Shown: positions 5,801 through 25,448 of the stretch, one piece after another | Numbering within the stretch: the stretch's first letter is position 1 | Layout of the letters: each line of letters begins with the position of its first letter | IMG/VR virus record: IMGVR_UViG_3300035698_014836 | Coordinates: 1-35,784 of that record | Length of the DNA: 35,784 nucleotides | Strand: one strand, 5' to 3' | Source: a virus | Position numbers and translations under genes: made by a program | Notes under the pieces: model-generated | The model's database searches: none | The model's input: only the letters and a program-made list of their open reading frames with translations | Told to the model about the DNA's origin: nothing

Positions 5801-6093
5801 CCCACGCCATCTTCATTTGCGAGGTGTGCGGCGGGGTGTTCGACCAGACGTGCCCGACCTGCCCTGATCGCGGTGGTGGTCGCGGCTTCACAGTTGGCGA
5901 GATCATGGACCACCTGCGCGCCTGCAAGACGGTGGCGGATGTGAACGCCTGCGCTACCAACTTCGGATCTCACGTTCGTGCCCTGCTCGCGCCTGGTCAC
6001 GGTGTCGAGGGTGCCAAGACGATGGCTATACAGATCAAGAACCTGGCCAAATACCGGCGCTGGTTCATTGGCGAAACCTGGAGGAAGAAATGA
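5797..6093 (+). CDS. Zinc-ribbon-like small protein, 98 aa
   Basis: Starts at a GTG overlapping the clamp stop (GTGA); the next ATG would remove the cysteine pairs. Residues 8-11 (CEVC) and about 19-22 (CPTC) form a compact four-cysteine zinc site, followed by a helix (GEIMDHLRACKTVADVNACA) and a basic, aromatic C-terminus (KYRRWFIGETWRKK). It probably binds DNA or RNA, or a protein partner. Coupling to the clamp gene suggests a replication or repair role, but no family is recognised. Confidence 0.55.
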   Translation: MTHAIFICEVCGGVFDQTCPTCPDRGGGRGFTVGEIMDHLRACKTVADVNACATNFGSHVRALLAPGHGVEGAKTMAIQIKNLAKYRRWFIGETWRKK

Positions 6094-6515
6094 GTAACCG
6101 AATGACAGCGGCCAACCTACGGGCGTTCCGTGCAGCTGATGGCGACAACACGGCAAAGCGGAGCTACACAGACCGAGAGGGGCCAATCCATAAGGCGATT
6201 TTGGAGCTCCTTGACCTCAAGCTCCCGCCTTTTTCTATCTACCACCACAGCCCTAACGAGCTGGACATGAGAGGGCCGGAGGCGGCGCGTCAGATCGCCA
6301 AGGCTCGCAATCTCGGCACCCGCAAAGGCTGGCCGGATATCGAGATCATATGGCAAGGCCAGGCGTTCTTTATAGAGGTTAAGGCGGGTAATGGTCCGCT
6401 GAGCGCAGACCAAGTAGCCTGCCATCAAGAGTTGATGGAAGCTGGGGCTGAGGTTGCCCTGGTGCGCTCGGTGGATGATGCCGAAACGGCGCTTAGGGTC
6501 TGGGGGATGACATGA
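6090..6515 (+). CDS. VRR-NUC domain nuclease
   Basis: 141 residues, coupled by ATGA overlap, with GGAGGAA before the ATG. The C-terminal half has the VRR-NUC signature of the PD-(D/E)XK superfamily: GTRKGWPDIEI at about 76-86 with the metal-binding D83, then FFIEVKAGNG at about 94-102 with the ExK pair (E96, K98), then the LSADQVACHQELMEAGAEVAL helix-strand segment with the conserved Q108. Stand-alone phage VRR-NUC proteins are putative structure-specific endonucleases, such as Holliday junction or flap cleavage; here it could trim branched replication or packaging intermediates. Confidence 0.85.
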   Translation: MSNRMTAANLRAFRAADGDNTAKRSYTDREGPIHKAILELLDLKLPPFSIYHHSPNELDMRGPEAARQIAKARNLGTRKGWPDIEIIWQGQAFFIEVKAGNGPLSADQVACHQELMEAGAEVALVRSVDDAETALRVWGMT

Positions 6516-6559: not shown

Positions 6560-6753
6560 AATGCACCAGATGCAACGCACGCCAAGAGCGGATCGTGCTG
6601 TTTCCGTGCCTCCCCCAAACGTCTGCCATCCCTTACGGTGAAGAGGCGGTGCCATCGCCTGAGCCAATAAGGTTGCGCTGGGCCTGCCATGATTGCGGCC
6701 GGTATCACAACAAGGACGGCACCGCTTACGAGCCAGACGGAGAAGGCCTATGA
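6556..6753 (+). CDS. Zinc-ribbon protein, 65 aa
   Basis: The ATG at 6556 overlaps the stop of the methyltransferase relic; an upstream TTG at 6529 is less likely. Two CxxC pairs (CTRC at 3-6, CHDC about 48-51) flank a 40-residue insert, which gives a split zinc ribbon. The last third is polar and acidic. Its stop overlaps the HNH gene. It may be a small nucleic-acid-binding or transcription-modulating protein, but no specific family is recognised. Confidence 0.55.
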   Translation: MKCTRCNARQERIVLFPCLPQTSAIPYGEEAVPSPEPIRLRWACHDCGRYHNKDGTAYEPDGEGL

Positions 6754-7091
6754 ATACGCCGGAAAAGCGCCGTGACCGGATCCTGTCTAAGATCATGGAT
6801 CGAGTGATCGAGGATGAAGAAACCGGCTGTTGGGAGTGGCAAGGGCCAACCTCCGGCGGTGGTCGCGGTGGCGGATATGGCCGGATGCACCTGGACGGGC
6901 AGACGGTCGCGGTCCACCTGGTAGTGTTCTGCCATTTTCATGGCTACATCCCAGGCAAGAAGCAGGTTGACCACACCTGCGAGAACCGCCGGTGTTGCAA
7001 TCCTGACCATCTTGACCTGGTGACGCACCTGGAGAACCAGCGCCGCAAGACACGGCGCGAGCTGGTGCAAATTTTGGAGGAAGCCCGTTGA
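6750..7091 (+). CDS. HNH endonuclease
   Basis: The ATG at 6750 overlaps the previous stop (ATGA), giving 113 residues; the open frame upstream is discarded. It has the compact phage HNH_3 arrangement: GCWEWQG near 26-32, then VHLVVFCHFHGYIP, then VDHTCENRRCCNPDHL at about 73-88 with the catalytic DH pair, NR, and the CxxxxH zinc or structural elements, then LVTHLENQRRK. Such enzymes nick or cut DNA. In phages they are either free-standing homing endonucleases or packaging helpers near terminase. Here it sits in the clamp/VRR-NUC operon. Confidence 0.85.
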   Translation: MNTPEKRRDRILSKIMDRVIEDEETGCWEWQGPTSGGGRGGGYGRMHLDGQTVAVHLVVFCHFHGYIPGKKQVDHTCENRRCCNPDHLDLVTHLENQRRKTRRELVQILEEAR

Positions 7092-7573
7092 GTAATCCCG
7101 ACCTAAACCTGTCCGTCCCGTCGCTCATGGCGGCGTGTAAGGGCAACGTATCAATGCTGCCCAGCTTCATGGTGCACGACAATGACGTGTGGCCAAGGTC
7201 CGCAGTGATCCGCACGGACAGCAAAGGCAGGATCCACATGCGCCGGGCCGCGTTTGAAGCCGTCGTTATGGGGCAACTGCCTCTGCGCGCCGGTCTTTGG
7301 CAGCGTGTCGATGTGCAAGAGTTCTTTATCGCCCTTGAGGCGCATCACCTGGGCGGCGGTTCTGACCAGGTGGGAGGTGATCGCATGGGAGCTGCGCGTG
7401 GCGTGGCAATGGCAGACAAGGCCGGAAGGCTGGCAGGGGATCAGGGATATGGCGAGGCTTTACGAGGGGATCACCGGAAACAGGACCTTGCACGAGATGT
7501 GCGAGAAGCTAAGGAAGCCGGAACGAGCGGAAGCGTTGGCTCAAATGTCTTCACTGGAGTTCGTAGCGAATAA
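7088..7573 (+). CDS. Hypothetical protein, probably frame-shifted after about residue 88
   Basis: A TTG at 7088 overlaps the HNH stop (TTGA) and has GGAGG at good spacing. Residues 1-88 (from MSNPDLNLSVPSLMAACKG to VDVQEFFIALEAHH) read like a normal protein. After about position 7345 the frame becomes rich in codons ending in A and in low-quality Gly/Ala/Arg/Asp sequence. At the same time the +1 frame becomes coding-like. The true product therefore probably either continues in the other frame (see 7377-7904) or overlaps it. No family recognised for the N-terminal part. Confidence 0.45.
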   Translation: MSNPDLNLSVPSLMAACKGNVSMLPSFMVHDNDVWPRSAVIRTDSKGRIHMRRAAFEAVVMGQLPLRAGLWQRVDVQEFFIALEAHHLGGGSDQVGGDRMGAARGVAMADKAGRLAGDQGYGEALRGDHRKQDLARDVREAKEAGTSGSVGSNVFTGVRSE

Positions 7574-7904
7574 CGCCAGATGGTCTTGGACCTTAGAGGA
7601 TGATGACGGCGAGTTCCTATGCAGCATGGCTATCCTGCCCGACATTGGGCGGCGCGGCTGGTTCGTCTCATACCCTGGCGCAGCGGTGCGCTCGGCAGCT
7701 CAGATCCGGTGCATGTTTCGGGTCTACAAGATCATGCGAGACGACGCCCAGATCTATGACGAGCTCCGCGCCTGGGTCGCGCACGACGACGCGCGAGCAA
7801 TAAGGTTTGCCGAATGGTTCGGTTTCCGGTTAGATTGCGGCCCAGCGGCCGGGTTTTCACCCACAGGCCGTGACATGAGTTTATTCCTCTGGAGGTTGTC
7901 ATGA
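7377..7904 (+). CDS. GNAT-like protein (T7 gp13-like position), start uncertain
   Basis: Residues after the ATG at 7545 (MSSLEFVANNARWSW) follow the layout of small GNAT-like proteins found just before the portal gene in T7-like phages: strand pairs around FLCSMAILPDIG, a helix, then ARAIRFAEWFGFRLD and the closing PTGRDMSLFLWRL. Upstream, the same frame is convincingly coding back to about 7350 (VIAWELRVAWQWQTRPEGWQ), so I place the start at the GTG at 7377 with AGG six bases before. A +1 fusion with the 7088 frame is equally possible. In T7 the equivalent protein aids virion assembly; acetyltransferase activity is not shown. Confidence 0.6.
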   Translation: MIAWELRVAWQWQTRPEGWQGIRDMARLYEGITGNRTLHEMCEKLRKPERAEALAQMSSLEFVANNARWSWTLEDDDGEFLCSMAILPDIGRRGWFVSYPGAAVRSAAQIRCMFRVYKIMRDDAQIYDELRAWVAHDDARAIRFAEWFGFRLDCGPAAGFSPTGRDMSLFLWRLS

Positions 7905-8113: not shown

Positions 8114-9736
8114 ATGGCACAGTGGACGGTAGAGCACGCCTGGAAGGCGATCAATAGGGCCAAGACCGACAAGACCAGCTCAGATACGCTTTACCGCGAA
8201 GCTATGGAGCTGGTGTTTCCAGATCGAGAGAATTTCAACAAGTCTGCCGAGGGGCAGCAAAAGGCGGCTTACAATTGGGACAGCACGCCCCAGGTTTCCG
8301 TCATTCGCGCGGCTAACCGGCTCTCTGCCGACTTCACGCCACAGTTCCAGGATTGGTTCGAGGTAGGCTTGGGCCCGGCAGCTGAGCAAATGCCTGACCA
8401 GGCCTTCAAGGAAGCGGTAGGTAAATCGAAAGAAGAAGCCAAGGCAGAGCTTGAGGGCATTACCAACATTTGCCAGGCGGTGTTTAACGGTCCAGGCTGG
8501 CCCACAGCGTCAAACGAGACCTACATAGATTGGCACTTTGGCCAGGGCGGTATGAAGATCATGCCGAATGAGGATCACATGGGCGAGCCGGTGATCTTTC
8601 AATCCATGCCGCTATCGCACTTCTACGCCTACGAGGGGCCAAACGGCCGTCTTGATCGGTGGTTCTTTTGGCATGAGGTCCGCGCGGATGTAATCATGGC
8701 TGAGTGGCCTGATGCGAAGCTGCCCAAGCACATCGAGGAGGAGGCCGCAAAGCCTGCCCCTGCGAATATCAAGCTCGCCTCGTGCGTTTACCGAGACTAC
8801 GACGAAAAGGACAAGCCTTTCCGTTACGAGGTGTTTTGGCGGAAGGGTGCAGAAAAAGCGCGGATCGTTGAACGTCAAAGCCGCACTGGGGCCTTTGTTA
8901 CCCCGCGTTATGCAAAGCTGCCCGGCGAGAACCGTGGGCGCGGCCCGGTGACTTTCGCCCTGCCTGATATCCGCACGGCAAACAAGATTGTCGAGCTCAC
9001 GCTGCGCTCTGTCGCCATCGCTGTGGCTGGTGTCTACACGGCTGTTGATACAGGAGTGGTTGGTCCAATCTCGATCAAGCCTTACTCGATCATTCAGGTA
9101 CGCAAGAACGGCGGGCCGGATGGTCCAAGCCTCCAGCGTCTTGATAATCCGCAACGCATCGACTTCGGCCAGATCGTGCTTGAGAGCCTCCACGAGAACA
9201 TCAAGAAGATCATCGGTGACAGTAGCCTACCGCCCGAGGCTGGCGCTATCCGCACCGCAACCGAGTTCATTCAGCGCGCGCGCGAGCTCGTGGCGGATCA
9301 AGCCGGTGGCCTCGGCCGCTTGTATGCTGAGCTTATCATCCCGGCCGTTCAGCGCGTCGTTGATATCCTGGAAAGCAAGCAGATCTTGCCAACGGACGGC
9401 TTGAAGATCGACCAGTTTTTGATCGAGGTCCGCATGACCAGCCCGCTTGCGCGTGGTGAGGCGATGGGCGAGGTCGAAAACATTGTGCGCTTTATGGAGA
9501 TGCTTAAGGCGCTGGGTGGTGACGAGCTCATGGCGTTTGAGGTTAACCTTGAAACGACCACGCCGTACCTGGCGGATCTGATGAACGTGCCCCAAAAACT
9601 GCGCACTAATGAGGCTGAAAAGGCCGCAATCAAGAAGGCGGCGGCTCAGCAAGGCGCAGCGGCGCAGGGCGCAGATCCCAACGTCGCGGCGGAAGCGATG
9701 GATGCACAAGAGGAGCAAATGCAAGGTGGCCAGTAA
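8114..9736 (+). CDS. Portal (head-to-tail connector) protein
   Basis: 540 residues, the normal size for T7 gp8-like connectors, with GGGAGG before the ATG. Characteristic features are the N-terminal helix repeat (WKAINRAKTDKTSSDTLYREAMELVFPDREN), a segment VSVIRAANRLSADFTPQFQDWFEV, a wing domain, the stem-like SVAIAVAGVYTAVDTG region, and the crown with ATEFIQRARELVADQAGGLGRLYAELI. The Ala/Gln-rich C-terminal tail lies inside the capsid. Twelve copies should form the DNA channel at one capsid vertex and dock the terminase. The stop overlaps the next gene by 11 bases. Confidence 0.92.
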   Translation: MAQWTVEHAWKAINRAKTDKTSSDTLYREAMELVFPDRENFNKSAEGQQKAAYNWDSTPQVSVIRAANRLSADFTPQFQDWFEVGLGPAAEQMPDQAFKEAVGKSKEEAKAELEGITNICQAVFNGPGWPTASNETYIDWHFGQGGMKIMPNEDHMGEPVIFQSMPLSHFYAYEGPNGRLDRWFFWHEVRADVIMAEWPDAKLPKHIEEEAAKPAPANIKLASCVYRDYDEKDKPFRYEVFWRKGAEKARIVERQSRTGAFVTPRYAKLPGENRGRGPVTFALPDIRTANKIVELTLRSVAIAVAGVYTAVDTGVVGPISIKPYSIIQVRKNGGPDGPSLQRLDNPQRIDFGQIVLESLHENIKKIIGDSSLPPEAGAIRTATEFIQRARELVADQAGGLGRLYAELIIPAVQRVVDILESKQILPTDGLKIDQFLIEVRMTSPLARGEAMGEVENIVRFMEMLKALGGDELMAFEVNLETTTPYLADLMNVPQKLRTNEAEKAAIKKAAAQQGAAAQGADPNVAAEAMDAQEEQMQGGQ

Positions 9737-16543: not shown

Positions 16544-17128
16544 ATGTCATCCGTTTTCACGGCTATAAGCGCGGCCGTCGCCGCGACAGCGGCAACTGTC
16601 GGAACAGCGGCCGCTTCGGTTGGCACCGCATTTGGCATGACAGCTGCAACCACAACAGCTGCAACCACAACAGCGGCCGTGTCCACAGCTGCCGCGAGCA
16701 CGATCACGCTTTCGCAGGTTCTCAGCGCAGGATCCGCGCTGGCAGCTATCGGGCAAGGCTTCGCGGCAAGCGCTGCGGCTAAGGACCAGGCGGCGTTCGC
16801 CCAGGTCCAGGGGCTCCAAGAGGAAGCACAGGGCGCGGCCAAGGCGCGGGATCTTAGCCGGGAGTATGCCGAGCTTACGGGTGAACAAAAGGTCATCCAG
16901 TTAGCCAACGGGCTAGATATTGGAGTAGGCACGCCGGTTAATGTTGCGCAAAGCACGAGACGCCTTGCTGAGCGCAACCTAGATGTGACCAGGCAGGGCG
17001 CGGATAACCGTTCTGCAATGTCTCGGCTGCGCTCAAGAGGGCTTATGTCGGAGGCTCGCAGTTCTGTTCTAGGCGGCTTCGGCCGGTCGGCCGCTATCGG
17101 TGCCGATGCGTTCCAATTAACGGGGTAA
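16544..17128 (+). CDS. Small internal virion protein (gp14-like)
   Basis: 194 residues. Residues 1-90 are an Ala/Thr-rich hydrophobic, strongly helical tract suited to membrane insertion. The rest is a charged helix (AKDQAAFAQVQGLQEEAQGA) and a C-terminal region with DNRSAMSRLRSRGLMSEA. It follows the nozzle gene and precedes the two large ejection proteins, which is where T7 gp14 sits; gp14 forms the outer-membrane part of the ejection channel. An internal 15-base repeat encodes the Ala-Thr tract. Confidence 0.75.
   Translation: MSSVFTAISAAVAATAATVGTAAASVGTAFGMTAATTTAATTTAAVSTAAASTITLSQVLSAGSALAAIGQGFAASAAAKDQAAFAQVQGLQEEAQGAAKARDLSREYAELTGEQKVIQLANGLDIGVGTPVNVAQSTRRLAERNLDVTRQGADNRSAMSRLRSRGLMSEARSSVLGGFGRSAAIGADAFQLTG
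16640..16669 (+). repeat. 15-bp perfect tandem repeat in internal virion protein gene
   Basis: ACAGCTGCAACCACA occurs twice back to back, with a partial third copy, encoding alternating Thr-Ala. Slippage in the low-complexity hydrophobic segment is the likely cause. Confidence 0.8.
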
Positions 17129-17132
17129 AACC

Positions 17133-19646
17133 ATGCCATCTATTCGACGTTACGGGCCTTCTATGGTCACTCCTCAGATCTCTCCGCGCCCTGAGCTTGG
17201 CCAAGGCCGGGAGAAGTCGTTTGAGGCGTTCGGAAAGGTCTTGGGCTCAGCTCAAGAGTTTATCCGTCCTGCCGTTGTGGCCACGAGAACCGCGCAAGGT
17301 GAGCGCGACAGCCTAGAGCAAATAAATAACGACACCTTTGAGCCGCGCCAGCCGTTCACGGTCTACGATCAAGCGTTTAACGCTTCGGCGGATCGGGTCA
17401 TTGGGGCTCGTGCCCAGGGCGCGCTTGAAGAGGGGATGCGGGCCGCTCAAATCAAGGCAAATGGCAATGTTGGTGTGCTGCGCGTTGAGATGGAACGCAC
17501 GCGCCAAGAGATCATAGGCAGTCTTCCGGTCGAGCTGCCTGGCTTGGCAACCGAGATCCAAGCTAATTTTGATCGAGGGAAGCTCGCAGCCGAGCGCCAG
17601 GCTATCCAGCTGGCTCAGCGGCGTGTTGTGCAGCAACAGAGATCTGCCCTGGATGCGTCCATCACCGCAACCAGGCTGGAAGCGGATCGCCTAGCATTGA
17701 CCGGCGCGACAGCTGAGGAGCTGGCTGACCACCTGGCGCAATCCACAGAGGCGCTTGCACAGTTCGGGCCGCGCGGTGAGTTCGAGGTCGCGGGCCAGGT
17801 CTTCGCGCCGGATGCTTCGCGGGCGGGCACGGTAACGCAAGCTCGCATTACAGCAGAGATGGCCGATATCGCGGAGGACACCAGCCGCCTTATGATCGAG
17901 GCCGACTTCATGCGGTCGGAAGCTCCTGGGCAATACGTGGCCGAGTTTAGGCGCCAGGTCTTTGCGGGCAATTCCCCGCTTCCAGCTGGAGAGAGCTTGG
18001 AGGTTCTTCGCTCGATGGAGGGGCGCGCGCGCACCACGGAAAGCGCACGGCTTCGAGCTTCTAATGCTGAAAGGTTAATCCTCGAAAAAGGAATGACTGA
18101 CACGATAAACGGCTACGTTCAAATGGGCGAGGCGGGCGTGCCAGTGGCTATCCCTCAAGAAGAGCGCGCCGGTATTATCAATAACCTTTCCCCGCATCCA
18201 GACCTGCAACGGAGGGCACTGACAGAGTTTGCGGTCGCTGATGCGCAAGTAGCAACGCACGGCATGACCGGAACCGAGCTCATGAGCTATGTGTCCTCAG
18301 TTCGTGCCGATATGACTGCGGCAGTGGAGCGCGGCGAGCTAGATCTGCAAGGCGCGGCTATAATTGAGAGCCTGCAAGACCAGATCAAGAGAGTTCGAGA
18401 CGCGGTGTCTGCCGAGACCGTGGGGCTCCCAGTAATAGAGCAACTGATCCGTGACGGAGGGACTGCCGACGACGTGGACTATGACGCCATGCGCGAAAAC
18501 GCGGCAGGGAACCAGGATGTGATTAACGCAATCGCTGAGGTGGAGGCGTTCCACCGTGACGCTGAGACCTTTTCCGGCATGAGCGCCGAGGAACGGGAGG
18601 TCGCGCTGGAAGGCGCTCGCGCTTCGCTTACCGTGCTGGCGGCGCAGGCGAAGGGATACGGGTCTCACGCGCTAACAACGGGCGCAGTAATGGATCGCCT
18701 AGAGGCGTGGTCAGATCACCGCCAAGCCCTCGCATCTAGCGACCCGGTTGCGTTCGCTCAATCGGTCGGCGTTGTCCTGCCAGGCTTCGGGGACGCGGAG
18801 AATATGGCCCAGCTCGGCGCTCTGATTGGTGTGCGTGTTTTGCTTCTGGCGCCAGCTTCGCGCGCGGAGGGTGTCGATAACCCGGTGCCGCTGACACAGG
18901 CTGAGATTGACGGAATATCTGAGGTCTTTGAGGGCAGCTCACGCTCTGAGCGCGCGGAGTTTTTGGCGAGCGTTTCTGCGCTGGGTGAGGATCAAGCGAT
19001 GGCCATCTTCTCACGCGTTGGTCAATCTGAGCCGGTCATATTTGCGGCCGGGTCCGTCTACGCAAACGGGAACCAGCAAGCGGCCGGGGTCATCCTGCGC
19101 GGAGCGGTAGACACCAAGCTCCAGGGCGGTGGACCTATCGAGCAATCTGCGGCGCGCGAAGTATCGCTTGGCCCGCTCCTAGAGCTGGACATGCTCGCGC
19201 CCGAGGGTTTGGCAGATCTTGACGTAACGGCGCTGGCCTATGCGCGCGGCCTGGCGATGGCTGCGGGTGGTCGCATAATCGAGCAGGGCGATATCGAAGC
19301 AGGCTACCAGGTAGCCCTTGGCAGGCAGGCTGACGGGACCGGCGGGATTGTCGAAACCTCCTACGGGACCACTATCCTGCCTGCTGGATGGAATCGTGCA
19401 CGGCTTAACCAGGCAATCTTTTTCATGACCGAACAACAATTAACCGATCACGCGAAGGGTCTTGTTGTGGACCGTCTCGGGCGTCGGTTTTCTGTGGCGT
19501 CTCTCCTCGACAATATCGAGCAACTCAAACCGTCTTCTGAGGATCCGACCATTTTGATACCGCTTGATGCGGACGGCGCAGCCTTTGGGACAGATAACGG
19601 CGGCGAGCGCGGGATCCTTACATTCGACCTCAAGGAGATGGACTGA
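17133..19646 (+). CDS. Internal virion/ejection protein (gp15-like)
   Basis: 837 residues, predominantly helical. It begins with the structured-tail-like SPRPELGQGREKSFEAFGKV and continues with YDQAFNASADRVIGARAQGA and long coiled segments (RVEMERTRQEIIGSLP). The second in a 194-837-1108-823 series of virion proteins, it corresponds by order and composition to T7 gp15, which lines the periplasmic ejection tube. No catalytic motif is visible. GGGG precedes the ATG. The stop overlaps the next gene start (TGATG). Confidence 0.75.
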   Translation: MPSIRRYGPSMVTPQISPRPELGQGREKSFEAFGKVLGSAQEFIRPAVVATRTAQGERDSLEQINNDTFEPRQPFTVYDQAFNASADRVIGARAQGALEEGMRAAQIKANGNVGVLRVEMERTRQEIIGSLPVELPGLATEIQANFDRGKLAAERQAIQLAQRRVVQQQRSALDASITATRLEADRLALTGATAEELADHLAQSTEALAQFGPRGEFEVAGQVFAPDASRAGTVTQARITAEMADIAEDTSRLMIEADFMRSEAPGQYVAEFRRQVFAGNSPLPAGESLEVLRSMEGRARTTESARLRASNAERLILEKGMTDTINGYVQMGEAGVPVAIPQEERAGIINNLSPHPDLQRRALTEFAVADAQVATHGMTGTELMSYVSSVRADMTAAVERGELDLQGAAIIESLQDQIKRVRDAVSAETVGLPVIEQLIRDGGTADDVDYDAMRENAAGNQDVINAIAEVEAFHRDAETFSGMSAEEREVALEGARASLTVLAAQAKGYGSHALTTGAVMDRLEAWSDHRQALASSDPVAFAQSVGVVLPGFGDAENMAQLGALIGVRVLLLAPASRAEGVDNPVPLTQAEIDGISEVFEGSSRSERAEFLASVSALGEDQAMAIFSRVGQSEPVIFAAGSVYANGNQQAAGVILRGAVDTKLQGGGPIEQSAAREVSLGPLLELDMLAPEGLADLDVTALAYARGLAMAAGGRIIEQGDIEAGYQVALGRQADGTGGIVETSYGTTILPAGWNRARLNQAIFFMTEQQLTDHAKGLVVDRLGRRFSVASLLDNIEQLKPSSEDPTILIPLDADGAAFGTDNGGERGILTFDLKEMD

Positions 19647-22600
19647 TGGGTAACGGCTTAGTCAAGCTCCAGCCAACAGACGCGCGGATCACTTCGGGCG
19701 AGCGAACCACCTTTCGGGACGCGGTGTCGAGCGGCTTCACGAGTGAGAGAGAGCAGATGTGGACGCAAGATAGGCGTCGTGAGGCCGAGGCAATCGAGCC
19801 GCTTGATAACTTTTTGCGCACCATCACCTCTGGCGACAAAACCGTGTCAGAAGACACTGTAAACCGCTTGTTCGAGCAAGACTTCAACCCAGACGACGCT
19901 CTTCTTAACTCGGTTCTGACTGAGGCTGAGGGCCTGGGTTACGAGATCCCAGACGATGTGCGACCAGCGAGCCTAACCGAGCGCCGCAATAAGATCATGG
20001 GTGACGCGGCGGGGCGCGTTGAAGCTGCCGGGGAAGTCCTTTCGCGTGCTGGCGGCTTCGATAGGAATGTTGGTGCCCTGGTTGGTGGCTTGGCTGCCGG
20101 GATGACTGACCCGGTAAACCTCATGACACTTCCGGCCGGTGCCCCTATGCGTGCTGGCTTCCTGGCAACGGTCCTTATCGAAGGTGCGGTCAACGCGGCT
20201 ATCGAGGCGGCGCAAACGCCAGGGCGAAACGTGACGAGGGCTGAGCTTGGCCTTGAAGATGAAAGTATCCTCGAAAACGCTCTGTTTGGTGCCCTTCTCG
20301 GCGGCGCATTTGCCGGAACCATAAAGGGTGCGCAGCTCGGAGATCCTTTTATTCGGGAGGCTGGCGCAAAGGCGATGACGAGCATCGGCCGCTTCCTACC
20401 AGATCGGAAGGCGCTAATCGAAACCGCTGAGGCGTCGGGTGATGCTGAGGCTCAGTTCATAGCCCAAGTTCTGCGGCGCGACATGGAAGACCAGGAGGCG
20501 TCAACGTCGGGCGCGGATGCAGGAGAGGTGCGCGAGCACCAGGAACGCGCCCAGGCGGCGGCTGTGTCGGCCCTGGACGGCACAACGCCCGACATGCCCG
20601 ACCGCCCGACATTTGCGCAGCCTCGCGCTTCTATAATCGGTGGCGAGATCGAGGAAATTAACCCGAGCGAGTTGCTGGTGCAGCCTGACGTTTTCCAGTT
20701 CCGCTCCAATGCCGTGGCAAGCGGCGGGCAGACTGAGCGGCTTCTCAAGGTAACTGAGTGGATGCCGGAGCGTGCTGGCGTGGTGATCGTTTACGAATAC
20801 GCTGACGGGTCGAGGGCAGTAGCAGACGGACACCAACGCACAGGCCTGGCCGCGCGGATCTCGGCGCAAACAGGTCAAGAGATCAGGATGGCGGCAAAAG
20901 TCTATCGTGAGGTCGATGGCTTTACGCCCGAGGATATCCGATATTTGGCCGCGCTCAAGAATATCGGAGAGGCAAGCGACGGCATGTCTCAAGCTATGGC
21001 GCGGGATGCTGCGCGTGTTTTGAGGGTTAGGCCCGAGGCAATCATGCAGCTGCCAGCCGGTCCAGGTATCGGCCGGGCGCAATCCTTAGCCAAACTGTCA
21101 GATGACGCCTTTGACATGTTCATAAACGAGGTGGTTCCCGAGCGCTTTGCGGAGCTGGTCGGCCGCATGGTTGAGAACCCAGATATGCACGGCGCTATGA
21201 TGACGCTCCTAAAGCGCACCGCGCCGGAAACGTCGGCCCAGGCAGAGAGCATACTGGCCCAAGCACTCGAAGCGCCGGTGTCGCGCGAGGTCACAAACGA
21301 CCTTTTCGGAGAGCAAGAGATCGTTGAAAGCCTATACTTGGAGCGCGCCAAGGTTCTGGAGCGTGCCACGCGATTGATGCGCGATGATCGCAGTGTCTTT
21401 CGCACGCTGGACGAGCAAGCTGAGCGGATCCAGGGAACCGGGGCCAACCGGCTCGATGAAGCCAGCAACAAGCAGACCAGGCAACAAGTGGAACAAGCTC
21501 TCGCGGCGGTGCAGAAATTGGCACACCGAGCCGGGGCAATATCGGAGGCACTAAACGATGGCGCGAAAAGCTATAAAGAAAACGGCCGTCTCAAAGACGC
21601 CGCCCAAAGAGTTGCCGATGCTGTCCGACAAGAGGTTGAGCGAAATGGCCTCTCTGGGGCAGGAGATGGCCCTACTGGACGCAATTCAGAACCTCAAGGT
21701 GCGAGCACAAATGCACCTGATCCGCTCGAAGGGTTCTCAGACCCATTAGGCCAGGGGTCTAAAGACCAGATAGCCAACACTCAAATAGATCCCATTGTCG
21801 AACCTCAAATTGACACCTTGGCGGATATGACACCTGCCCAATCAGCCAAGCTGGAAAACGGCCTAAAGGATGCGCAGGCTTTCCGTGACGTTGACGAGCT
21901 CATGATGCGCAGCGCGGCCAATCATGCTGAGCTTACGGGCAGCATTGAAATGGCGGCGCAGAACGCCGGGGTAACGCCTAGATCCGCACCAATTAAAGAG
22001 CTGCACCGCGTAGAAGAAAAGATCCGTGATAAGTATTCAGGGAATATAAACCGCATTACCGACGTTGCGCGCGGCGGTGTCGAAGCCCAAACCCCAAAGG
22101 CGGCAAACGCTTTTGTCGCTGCGCTCGCGCGCCGTTACCGTGTTCTGGATGAAGGGTGGAACCTGGTCGATGGAGGCTATTTTGACCGCAAACTGACAGT
22201 TGTTTTTGATGATGGCCAGTTAGGCGAGGTGCAAATTTGGGTGCCTGGCATGTTTGAGGTGAAGGAGGCTCGTGGCGCTGCTCTGTATAAAATATACAGA
22301 AGCAAGAAAGCCTCCCAAAAGAAGAAGGCGGCGGCGCTTAGGGATATGGAAGCCCTTTACCGAGGCGTGATGGATAAGCTGCCACCGCAATGGCGCACGC
22401 TATTCGATCAAGAAACGCCTGGGACTGATGCGCCGAGCTCCGCGACGACGGAAACGAATATCTCCTCGGATACCTCCGGCGATCCCTCGTCAGAAAGCAC
22501 TTCGGCGGGCTTGACCGGCGACCAGGTGCCGTCAGTTCCAAGCAGTAGCATTGACCCCGGCTCTTCCTCCACAGCGGGGATTGAGCGGTCAACTAGAAAA

Positions 22601-22972
22601 AATCTCATGGGGGATACCTCCAATGCAGATATAAGCAACAATGGTCGCAGTGTCAACGTAGAGCAAACAGACGCCGGATCTCAGGGCTTGTTCGATGGTG
22701 TCGAGCCTATCACACAACGCACGAGACTTGACCAGGAAGCGGCTCGCCCAATGGGTAAAGGTGGAACGCAGCCGGATCAAACGGAAATTGGCGGAATGTT
22801 CGACCCGGCAGACCCGTCTCGGTTTGACCTGTTTGACCAGGTGCCGGTCGCGCGTGGGTTTGACGACGAGGGCAACGAAGTGTCGATAACAAAATCGCGG
22901 GGGGATCTTGCGGCAGAGCTCGATGCAGACGACGAAGCCGTAGCTGTCCTAGATATTTGCATAAAGGGATAA
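19646..22972 (+). CDS. Large ejection protein with ParB-like and RelA/SpoT-like domains
   Basis: 1108 residues. Residues 1-235 resemble the N-terminus of T7-like ejection proteins, with hydrophobic glycine-rich helices (VGALVGGLAAGMTDPVNL; LFGALLGGAFAGTI). Residues about 336-460 form a ParB/DdrB-like domain: INPSELLVQPDVFQFRS, then RAVADGHQRTGLA and YLAALKNIGEASDGMSQAM. Residues about 560-780 are linkers. Residues about 784-895 match the RelA/SpoT synthetase pattern: HRVEEKI (R788), ITDVARGG (D806), GGYFDRKLTVV, GEVQIWVPGMF (E861) and RGAALYKIYR. The tail after 895 is disordered Ser/Thr/Asp-rich. It is probably injected into the host with the DNA. A 63-codon frame with its own RBS is embedded at 21558. 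Confidence 0.8.
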   Translation: MGNGLVKLQPTDARITSGERTTFRDAVSSGFTSEREQMWTQDRRREAEAIEPLDNFLRTITSGDKTVSEDTVNRLFEQDFNPDDALLNSVLTEAEGLGYEIPDDVRPASLTERRNKIMGDAAGRVEAAGEVLSRAGGFDRNVGALVGGLAAGMTDPVNLMTLPAGAPMRAGFLATVLIEGAVNAAIEAAQTPGRNVTRAELGLEDESILENALFGALLGGAFAGTIKGAQLGDPFIREAGAKAMTSIGRFLPDRKALIETAEASGDAEAQFIAQVLRRDMEDQEASTSGADAGEVREHQERAQAAAVSALDGTTPDMPDRPTFAQPRASIIGGEIEEINPSELLVQPDVFQFRSNAVASGGQTERLLKVTEWMPERAGVVIVYEYADGSRAVADGHQRTGLAARISAQTGQEIRMAAKVYREVDGFTPEDIRYLAALKNIGEASDGMSQAMARDAARVLRVRPEAIMQLPAGPGIGRAQSLAKLSDDAFDMFINEVVPERFAELVGRMVENPDMHGAMMTLLKRTAPETSAQAESILAQALEAPVSREVTNDLFGEQEIVESLYLERAKVLERATRLMRDDRSVFRTLDEQAERIQGTGANRLDEASNKQTRQQVEQALAAVQKLAHRAGAISEALNDGAKSYKENGRLKDAAQRVADAVRQEVERNGLSGAGDGPTGRNSEPQGASTNAPDPLEGFSDPLGQGSKDQIANTQIDPIVEPQIDTLADMTPAQSAKLENGLKDAQAFRDVDELMMRSAANHAELTGSIEMAAQNAGVTPRSAPIKELHRVEEKIRDKYSGNINRITDVARGGVEAQTPKAANAFVAALARRYRVLDEGWNLVDGGYFDRKLTVVFDDGQLGEVQIWVPGMFEVKEARGAALYKIYRSKKASQKKKAAALRDMEALYRGVMDKLPPQWRTLFDQETPGTDAPSSATTETNISSDTSGDPSSESTSAGLTGDQVPSVPSSSIDPGSSSTAGIERSTRKNLMGDTSNADISNNGRSVNVEQTDAGSQGLFDGVEPITQRTRLDQEAARPMGKGGTQPDQTEIGGMFDPADPSRFDLFDQVPVARGFDDEGNEVSITKSRGDLAAELDADDEAVAVLDICIKG
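21558..21749 (+). CDS. Embedded small basic protein, overlapping gene (63 aa)
   Basis: Lies entirely inside the 1108-residue ejection protein gene in the +1 frame. GGAGG sits nine bases before the ATG, as good a ribosome binding site as any in the window. The product has a basic N-terminus (MARKAIKKTAVSKTPPKEL) and then one regular amphipathic helix (LSEMASLGQEMALLDAIQNL). Its codons mostly end in G or C like real genes here, whereas the main frame at this place encodes a Ser/Gly/Asn-rich linker. It could act in nucleic acid binding, virion assembly, or control of the RelA-like domain that follows; function unknown. Confidence 0.55.
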   Translation: MARKAIKKTAVSKTPPKELPMLSDKRLSEMASLGQEMALLDAIQNLKVRAQMHLIRSKGSQTH

Positions 22973-22976
22973 GATC

Positions 22977-25448
22977 ATGAGCCTAGACGAATGTGTCAGA
23001 CGTGCGGTTGCCGGTGGCGAGATGGACCCGGCGCGAGCGCAAAGAATTGTCGCGCAATACAACGGTGCGTTTGCACAGTTCCAGCAAAGCATGGGCTACA
23101 ACCAGGCTCAGATAGCGGCAGCGCAGCATGTAGCCAAGGCCGCGCGCATTGCTGCCTCTGAAAAGCGCCGCGTGATGCAACTCCAAGCGTCGTCTACAAA
23201 GCGATTAGGCAACCGGATGCAGCAGCACCGCAACATTCGCGGCGATCTGGACCCGGCGCAATTCATGGAGGATCTGGTTTCAAACGCGCGCGGTGCAGGC
23301 GGCGCAACCTTATCTGGCCAATATGAAGCGGTGCGCCGCTCCTTCCGGCGCGATCTGACTTTGGCGATACAGTCATTCAGGGCTAATCTGTTGGGCACCC
23401 GGCGCAAGCAAGAGCTTCTTGACGATGTGGGGCGGTCCATCTTTGGGGAGACTGTTACCGACAAAAAGGCAACCGGCATTGCAGCCTCTTGGGCTGGCGT
23501 AGCCGAGCGCGCGCGATTGCGAGCGAACGCGGCTGGGATGCACATTGGCAAACGTAAGGATTGGGGGCTTCCGCAAAGCCACAGCACAAAAGAGGTGCGC
23601 AAGGCGGGATATCAAGAATGGCGAGACTTCATTCTCCCGCGCCTGGATCTGGACACAATGGGCCGCGAGTATAACAACGGCTTGCCATTCACACCTCAAA
23701 GCATCGAGGCGCTCCTGAAGGACGCGCACGAGGCCATCCGAACGGACGGATATTCTCGCCGGTCGGCTGCGGCTCGCAACGGTTCAGCGATGTATAACAA
23801 GCGGTCAGATCATCGGTTCTTCAAGTTCAATTCTTATGATGATTGGAAGGGATACAATACGCGGTTTGGCTCGGGCCAGGATATCTTTAGGGTGATGATG
23901 GGGCACCTGGACAATGTGGCGATGGATATCTCCATGATGGAGGTCTTAGGGCCGAACCCAACTCACAGTTTTCGCTTCTTGTCGGACGCAGCCAAGCAGC
24001 TCGCCAGCAGATCACCAGACCCCAAGGCTCTGGACCGCGCCACGCGCGTAACCAAGAACGCTGATGATATGATGGACGTGTTTACCGGCCGTTCCAATAT
24101 GCCTCAAAACGAGATGCTTGCGCGCGGTGGGTCGGCCTTGCGAAGCTACCTCACGAGCGCGCACCTCGGATCTGCCGTGGTTACAAGCGTGACGGACTTC
24201 AACACGCAGCGCGTAGCGGCGGGCTTCATCGGCATGAAAAAGCTAGGCTTTATGAAGCAGCTCGCGGCCTTGGCTACGTCACCAGATATGCGCGCAGAGG
24301 CGAACCAGGCGGGCCTTATTTTCGAGAACGCCGTGGACATAGGTAACGCCGTTGGGCGTTTTGAGCTTGAGGAAATGCACATCGAGACGGCCACGCGGCT
24401 GGCTGACTTCACTATCCGAGCTTCCGGCCTGGGCTGGCTTACTGAGGTTCAGCGCCAATCGTTTGGGCTGGAGTTTATGAGCCAAGCAAGCAAGTGGGCG
24501 CAGGGGTCTTGGAAGGATATGGACCCACGGTCTCAGCGCATGTTTAAGAGCTATGGCATAGGCGAGAACGATTGGCCGGTCATCCAGCGCGCAAAGATCC
24601 ACCAGGCAAGTAATGGGCTTCGCATGTTGCGCAGCCAGGAGATCGAGGCAGCAGGCAGTGCCGCCATTGCTGATAGGTATATGGAGGCGATCACGAGCTT
24701 AATAGAGTTTGCGGTTCCATCGACTAGCATCTACGGCAAGGCTGTTGTTCTGGGTCGGACGCAGCCCGGCTCTATTGGTGGCGAGTTCTTGCGGTTTGGC
24801 CTCCAGTTCAAGAGCTTCCCCGTCACGGTGCTGGTAACTCAAGTGGGCCGCATGATGGCTGAGAGCAACCAGGGGCGAAAAAGCTCGGCGCTGTCTTATG
24901 CTGCCGGGCTTCTTGTTGGAAACACAATCCTTGGCGCGCTGGCTATGCAGATGAAAGAAGTAACCAAGGGTAAAGACCCGCGAAGCATGGACAGCATGGA
25001 GTTTTGGTTGTCCGCTATTGCCCAGGGTGGTGGCTTTGGCCTGTTTGGTGACTTCCTGTTCTCGGATGTGAACCGCTTTGGCGGCGGGGTTGGTGAGAGC
25101 TTGGCTGGTCCTGGGGTTGGCTTCCTGGATGACATGCTCCGGTTTACCGTGGGCAACGCGCGTGAGGGGATCATGGGCGAAGACACAAAGGTAGGCCGTG
25201 AGTTCGTGCATCTCTTGCGCAATTACACGCCGGGCGGTTCGCTTTGGTATCTGCGCCTCGCTTATGAGCGCGAGGTTCTTGACCAGCTCCAGCGTATCGT
25301 GGATCCCAAGGCTGCGCAGTCATTCCGTAGGCGCGTTCAGAACGCGCGGGACTACGATACACAGTTCTTCGCGCCGCCGGGTTCTTCTGTTATGCAGGGC
25401 ACAGGTCGCGTTCGGGCACCAGATATAGCAAACGCTTTCGGAGGTTAA
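22977..25448 (+). CDS. Large internal virion/ejection protein (gp16 C-terminal-like)
   Basis: 823 residues, the last of the ejection set. It is helical throughout, with an N-terminal EMDPARAQRIVAQYNGAFAQ region, a central FNTQRVAAGFIGMKKLGFM part and C-terminal hydrophobic, glycine-rich stretches (YAAGLLVGNTILGALAMQM; AIAQGGGFGLFGDFL). It ends with the family pattern GGSLWYLRLAYEREVLDQL, then PKAAQSFRRRV, common in podoviral gp16-like proteins. I see no transglycosylase motif, so cell-wall cutting at entry must come from elsewhere. AAAGGG precedes the ATG. Confidence 0.75.
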   Translation: MSLDECVRRAVAGGEMDPARAQRIVAQYNGAFAQFQQSMGYNQAQIAAAQHVAKAARIAASEKRRVMQLQASSTKRLGNRMQQHRNIRGDLDPAQFMEDLVSNARGAGGATLSGQYEAVRRSFRRDLTLAIQSFRANLLGTRRKQELLDDVGRSIFGETVTDKKATGIAASWAGVAERARLRANAAGMHIGKRKDWGLPQSHSTKEVRKAGYQEWRDFILPRLDLDTMGREYNNGLPFTPQSIEALLKDAHEAIRTDGYSRRSAAARNGSAMYNKRSDHRFFKFNSYDDWKGYNTRFGSGQDIFRVMMGHLDNVAMDISMMEVLGPNPTHSFRFLSDAAKQLASRSPDPKALDRATRVTKNADDMMDVFTGRSNMPQNEMLARGGSALRSYLTSAHLGSAVVTSVTDFNTQRVAAGFIGMKKLGFMKQLAALATSPDMRAEANQAGLIFENAVDIGNAVGRFELEEMHIETATRLADFTIRASGLGWLTEVQRQSFGLEFMSQASKWAQGSWKDMDPRSQRMFKSYGIGENDWPVIQRAKIHQASNGLRMLRSQEIEAAGSAAIADRYMEAITSLIEFAVPSTSIYGKAVVLGRTQPGSIGGEFLRFGLQFKSFPVTVLVTQVGRMMAESNQGRKSSALSYAAGLLVGNTILGALAMQMKEVTKGKDPRSMDSMEFWLSAIAQGGGFGLFGDFLFSDVNRFGGGVGESLAGPGVGFLDDMLRFTVGNAREGIMGEDTKVGREFVHLLRNYTPGGSLWYLRLAYEREVLDQLQRIVDPKAAQSFRRRVQNARDYDTQFFAPPGSSVMQGTGRVRAPDIANAFGG

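Follow-up and report, generated by a model that had tools for sequence, protein, structure and literature searches.

The window analysed here is a 35.8-kb virus record (IMG/VR record IMGVR_UViG_3300035698_014836, taken at its full length of 35,784 nucleotides), and our subject is a gene within it for a predicted ejection protein of 1108 amino acids that carries a RelA/SpoT-type synthetase domain. The genes at the locus follow the order tail tube proteins, gp14-like internal virion protein, 837-amino-acid protein, 1108-amino-acid protein and 823-amino-acid virion protein, which is syntenic with the internal virion protein cluster of the phages phiV10 and epsilon15. N-terminal to the synthetase domain lies a ParB-like region, as an earlier note on this DNA had proposed: the confident portion of its AlphaFold model matches Noc/ParB (Foldseek E 9e-6). 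A Pfam scan of the 1108-amino-acid protein gave no ParB family match, and the assignment therefore rests on the predicted fold.

The earlier note had placed a RelA/SpoT-like domain at residues 784-895. The domain is present and the cited residues R788, D806 and E861 lie in the open reading frame where they had been given, but its extent is wider, at about 741-925. A single-sequence phmmer search (residues 749-925 against 177,635 PDB sequences, listed up to E 10) returned one match at E<=10, Tas1 (6ox6, E 1.7e-5), with an alignment spanning the K/R helix, the Asp, the GY element and the GE.Q strand in order. Because the lone match is Tas1 and the motifs align in order, the motif pattern is not a product of chance. 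With a profile built from relatives the Tas1 match rises to E 1.3e-8, and with two remote homologues added to 1.9e-19, accompanied by SaEAS (9.4e-6) and Escherichia coli RelA (5.6e-5); the significant PDB matches of this broader profile are alarmone synthetases only, with no unrelated protein among them. A direct family scan of the window domain (Pfam PF04607 RelA_SpoT, NCBIfam and PHROGs) gave no RelA_SpoT match. The profile of the window family finds a stand-alone alphaproteobacterial protein (E 2.7e-12) that itself exceeds the Pfam RelA_SpoT cut-off (37.3 vs 27 bits). Weak PHROG and Pfam matches of the window protein (phrog_28256, TBCA, GRHL1_C and others) were taken as chance.

An AlphaFold model of the domain, made from ten aligned sequences, reached a predicted local distance difference test score (pLDDT) of 91.1 and a predicted template modelling score (pTM) of 0.86. 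Its top Foldseek matches are Tas1, SaEAS (8vx3) and RelQ/RelP, and VIA-align gave Z scores of 15.6 for Tas1, 14.9 for RelQ (SAS1), 12.6 for CapRel and 7.6 for FaRel2, with about 7 for unrelated Pol-beta nucleotidyltransferases. Searched against viral models, the domain finds its best matches in large polyvalent proteins from uncultured phages, and some of these already bear the name RelA/SpoT or DdrB-like. The modelled synthetase-domain fold superposes on known alarmone synthetases, so that a comparison which could have placed the segment in an unrelated fold supports the assignment at the level of fold. The Tas1 match, the profile matches and the fold together confirm the proposed RelA/SpoT-type synthetase domain, and we are practically certain, by judgement rather than computation, that the segment is a genuine alarmone-synthetase domain.

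Conservation was counted over 33 sequences, very divergent same-slot copies included. Seven residues (K784, K792, D806, R809, Y845, D847 and E861) are invariant in all 33, and K849 and K873 are each present in 32. The predicted Mg-binding Asp (D806), the stacking Tyr of the GY element (Y845) and the predicted catalytic Glu (E861) follow one another as in SYNTH domains, and the invariance of D806 and E861 bears out their proposed equivalence to the catalytic positions. Two departures had been read as possible signs of inactivity, namely a shifted Arg after D806 and a GYxSxH His that was not obvious. As descriptions both hold, the Arg spacing being three rather than five and the His being absent. 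As signs of decay they largely do not, since the Arg has the Tas1 arrangement and is invariant, and since GYxDxK, with its conserved D847 and K849, replaces the GYxSxH element. The Apk enzymes likewise lack this His and carry GxN (PMC12226406). For the domain, the ratio of nonsynonymous to synonymous substitution rates (dN/dS) mostly falls at about 0.07-0.10 and one close pair reaches 0.17; these values are similar to or below those of the rest of the protein, which indicates that the domain is under purifying selection and kept functional. We consider the domain quite probably catalytically active.

Table 1. Features of the window around the gene of the predicted ejection protein (residue numbers refer to the 1108-amino-acid protein).
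Feature	Position	Strand	Basis
gp14-like internal virion protein	16544..17128	+	phrog_418 E 2.6e-7
837-amino-acid protein, gp15-like position	17133..19646	+	weak PHROG head protein match; synteny
Predicted ejection (internal virion) protein carrying effector slot, 1108 amino acids	19646..22972	+	open reading frame; PHROG matches; phiV10/epsilon15 synteny; relatives
Candidate membrane-inserting region, Gly/Ala-rich hydrophobic segments, residues 142-226	20069..20323	+	Kyte-Doolittle; inference
ParB/Noc-like fold, residues about 335-542	20648..21271	+	AlphaFold confident region; Foldseek
RelA/SpoT-type (Tas1-like) synthetase domain, residues 741-925	21866..22420	+	sequence searches, AlphaFold, Foldseek, VIA
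R788	22007-22009	+	
D806, predicted Mg-binding Asp	22061..22063	+	33/33 invariant; aligned with Tas1 Asp
R809, "shifted" Arg, placed as in Tas1	22070..22072	+	33/33 invariant
GYFDRK acceptor loop, residues 844-849 (GY + DxK)	22175..22192	+	alignment of 33 relatives
Y845	22178-22180	+	
E861, predicted catalytic Glu	22226..22228	+	33/33 invariant
Low-complexity linker and C-terminal tail	22421..22969	+	final part retained in module-less relatives
823-amino-acid virion structural protein, directly after effector gene	22977..25448	+	phrog_684 E 5.5e-159

Relatives were collected through the ParB region, with 80 loci kept of 220, and the content of the slot behind this region varies between a Rel domain, a Zeta_toxin kinase, a weak ART-like domain, another conserved domain and a short tail. 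Zeta_toxin (Pfam) was detected in 17 of the 29 scanned tails, with E down to 1.7e-21. Exchange is visible between near-identical phages: L115 (Zeta) and L113 (other domain) share 96-99% nucleotide identity up to position 7178 and from position 8155 and show no similarity in between, and the ParB protein segment of L125 (Rel) is identical to that of L115, with upstream DNA 90% identical. In L060 the module is absent and a remnant of its flank is retained, which shows that the module was lost by deletion; in close relatives that lack the module, the deletion is clean. About 22-23 changes of slot content are needed on the ParB tree of 66 sequences (where L089, whose row ends at the contig end, was counted as short tail), and the starred branches alone force at least nine changes for Rel. 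Because some phages have an unrelated toxin-like enzyme in place of the module and others lack the module altogether, it is best regarded as an effector and not as a structural element. The sharing of the slot between the Rel domain, Zeta-type kinases and other domains suggests that it is probably under diversifying selection and holds host-crippling or host-modulating activities.

Several further arrangements were observed in these relatives. A Zeta_toxin-type kinase stands in place of the Rel domain in the near-relative podovirus ejection proteins of L056, L074, L075, L128 and others. A well conserved other domain occupies the slot in L080, L095, L108, L113 and L117 (about 7300-7900); hhalign against the Rel profile gave 90% over 51 columns, the best PDB match was RelP (E 0.6), and the domain may be a second divergent Rel domain, which we do not claim. 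L008 has a GNAT acetyltransferase domain inserted past the Rel domain, within its C-terminal tail (residues about 1015-1080), and in L047 (3847-12372) the same ParB-like region belongs to a protein of at least 2842 amino acids with helicase- and methylase-like regions.

No close homologue of the domain was found in cultured phages, where remote matches were limited to Bordetella phage PHB04 and streptococcal MuF proteins, and a search of viral contigs with the stand-alone alphaproteobacterial relative (L051) found nothing. Among bacterial genomes the one close match is L034 (1257-2090), a phage Rel segment within a xanthine-dehydrogenase-like gene on a Rhodobacteraceae contig from a metagenome-assembled genome. 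It was rejected as a prophage, as phage DNA inside such a gene looks like an assembly chimera; it therefore gives no support for a prophage and weak support for a Rhodobacteraceae host.

The synteny with the epsilon15/phiV10 internal-protein cluster and the PHROG matches make it likely that the 1108-amino-acid protein is packaged and ejected. The hydropathy of the protein (Kyte-Doolittle) peaks at residues 142, 171 and 208. For T7, gp16 is described with its C-terminal part in the host cytoplasm (PMC8954989), and a C-terminal enzyme of the window phage would by analogy end up inside the cell. We hold delivery of the domain to the cytoplasm to be reasonably likely. Of the named records, the nearest is "Dunaliella viridis virus SI2" (L048, NC_023841), which has the same cluster with a 792-amino-acid version of the protein that lacks the domain. 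This record is a tailed bacteriophage related to the window and is probably mislabelled as having an algal host. Genes for a VRR-NUC (6090-6515) and an HNH endonuclease (6693-7091) lie between the window's terminase and portal genes. The window gave no integrase match, and an integrase is present in two of ten records, the Rel-bearing L087 contig among them, for which reason we do not call the group strictly lytic.

The gene of the 823-amino-acid virion protein starts 5 nt past the stop of the effector gene with no immunity gene in between, and a virion gene follows directly 3' of the effector gene in all 12 loci inspected. No HD_4 hydrolase was found in the window and 19 other contigs (18 Rel-bearing and the Zeta-bearing L105), most of which are incomplete. 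Streptococcal Apk2 phages and PHB04 encode an HD hydrolase two genes downstream of their synthetase. In PHB04 (L035 9254-11516) the product of a portal-adjacent gene carries a C-terminal RelA_SpoT domain, the hydrolase is of the HD_4 type and the pair resembles Apk2/Aph1. An HD_4 hydrolase is fused to a Tas1-like synthetase in a 448-amino-acid protein of a 1.1-Mb alphaproteobacterial genome (L052 733-2076). A non-lysogenic phage would need no immunity gene, yet some relatives of the window carry integrases.

We posit, with moderate confidence, that the podovirus ejection protein carries an exchangeable Tas1/Apk-type synthetase effector. The protein would be packaged in the phage head and expelled together with the genome, and its C-terminal part with the synthetase domain would reach the cytoplasm. 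There, ATP would serve as pyrophosphate donor for an acceptor's 3'-OH; the acceptor may be a nucleotide with adenine or guanine as its base or, with lower likelihood, the end of a tRNA. An instant pulse of alarmone-type nucleotides and/or a drain of ATP and GTP would slow the host at the start of infection. A bolder version seems doubtful to us. In it, the ejection protein of a family of apparently virulent podoviruses would be a polymorphic carrier of effectors without immunity genes, every virion would send one of several exchangeable enzymes (synthetase, Zeta-type kinase or ART) into the host along with the DNA, and the DxK synthetase would yield a novel pyrophosphorylated product.

Several points weigh against the proposal of a delivered, active synthetase. 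Published acceptor-loop signatures are SxH for (p)ppGpp synthetases and GxN for (p)ppApp synthetases (PMC12226406). The DxK loop agrees neither with the SxH of the (p)ppGpp-specific RSH/SAS enzymes nor with the GxN of the (p)ppApp-specific Apk enzymes, so the product cannot be predicted from it. Arg and His/Thr, which most relatives carry at residues 786 and 878, are replaced by Leu and Ala in the window copy, both positions being variable among the relatives. Packaging and ejection are predicted from synteny and PHROG matches, and without an immunity gene an active enzyme made late would also hit the producing cell.

Among the alternatives, a nucleotidyltransferase-fold domain that is catalytically dead or structural, with a nucleotide- or DNA-binding role in the ejectosome, fares best, and we nonetheless consider it improbable. 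The loss of Arg786 and His878 in the window copy would agree with it, and ejection proteins are structural; against this, even very divergent copies keep the metal, base and phosphate positions unchanged, and the module can be dispensed with and gives way to an unrelated enzyme fold, which would not be expected of a structural part. Slightly less probable still is a device for anti-competitor action, superinfection exclusion or counter-defence, directed at rival phages or host nucleotide-signalling defences rather than at host takeover. The polymorphic slot would suit such a device, and Iyer et al. proposed such roles for nucleotide enzymes of polyvalent proteins (PMC5512222), but no defence or rival target is visible in the data and an ejected protein acts at first infection. 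Least probable is a toxSAS-type tRNA pyrophosphokinase, which would modify the tRNA CCA end and block translation instead of synthesizing a nucleotide alarmone: it shares the fold family (the CapRel match) and the RSH-type SxH is missing from the loop, but the nearest relative in sequence and structure is the nucleotide-modifying Tas1, and FaRel2 is matched at Z 7.6 only.

The preferred reading, an exchangeable synthetase effector, can be compared with several known systems. Tas1 (Apk1), a type VI effector and (p)ppApp synthetase of Pseudomonas aeruginosa, is the best match in sequence and fold and shares the Arg spacing after the Mg-binding Asp as well as the GY, ExQ and GHxxYE elements in order. 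It differs in being delivered by a type VI secretion system, in having an immunity partner and in its GxN acceptor loop. The Apk2 MuF toxins of temperate phages (for example Streptococcus phage K13, L036), which match the window domain weakly in sequence, likewise have the synthetase fused C-terminally to a virion protein. Theirs is a MuF head protein followed by the immunity genes IapK and Aph1 (HD hydrolase), whereas the window has a ParB-type podovirus ejection protein without such genes; Pfam detected no Phage_Mu_F N-terminal domain in the window protein, which has the ParB-like fold instead. Synthesis of (p)ppApp is proven for Apk1 and Apk2 (PMC12226406; PMC12691689), and distant homologues among the MuF toxins make (p)ppApp and are toxic (PMC12226406). 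The exported alarmone synthetases (SaEAS; PMC12691689) are the second-best Foldseek match and are Sec-exported bacterial enzymes, not phage proteins. The toxSAS toxin-antitoxin systems consist of a stand-alone toxin with an adjacent antitoxin, whereas the window domain is fused and directly followed by a virion gene.

The architecture has a precedent in the polyvalent proteins. In such phage proteins Iyer et al. (2017) described RelA/SpoT domains together with DdrB-like ParB domains, and from MuF fusions they described Zeta-like kinases (PMC5512222). The window protein likewise joins unrelated domains, ParB-like and synthetase, in one late-gene protein of the internal-protein cluster, with mosaic domains in its relatives, and Zeta and ART domains are also known in polyvalent proteins or MuF fusions. 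The published cases come from spirochaete and epsilonproteobacterial (pro)phages and MuF fusions, whereas in the window the setting is a podovirus ejection cluster of the epsilon15/phiV10 kind, in which cassettes are exchanged at a single slot. As RelA/SpoT domains in polyvalent proteins and MuF toxins are already published, the idea itself is not new. New, as far as the compared literature shows, are the epsilon15/phiV10-like ejection setting, the cassette exchange between near-identical phages, the apparent absence of immunity genes and the DxK acceptor signature.

Synthetases of the same family reach about 100,000 turnovers per minute (PMC12691689), and P22 injects about 12 gp16 copies (PMC8402733). 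At that rate 4-12 copies could convert 0.4-1.2 million nucleotides per minute, which is comparable in magnitude to all the ATP of a small cell (assuming 3 mM ATP in 1 fL). Because near-identical phages have exchanged the slot content naturally, its function can be tested directly. If our reading is correct, phages would deliver alarmone synthesis as protein, ahead of any phage gene expression, and podovirus ejectosomes would be delivery devices for swappable effectors besides being conduits for DNA.
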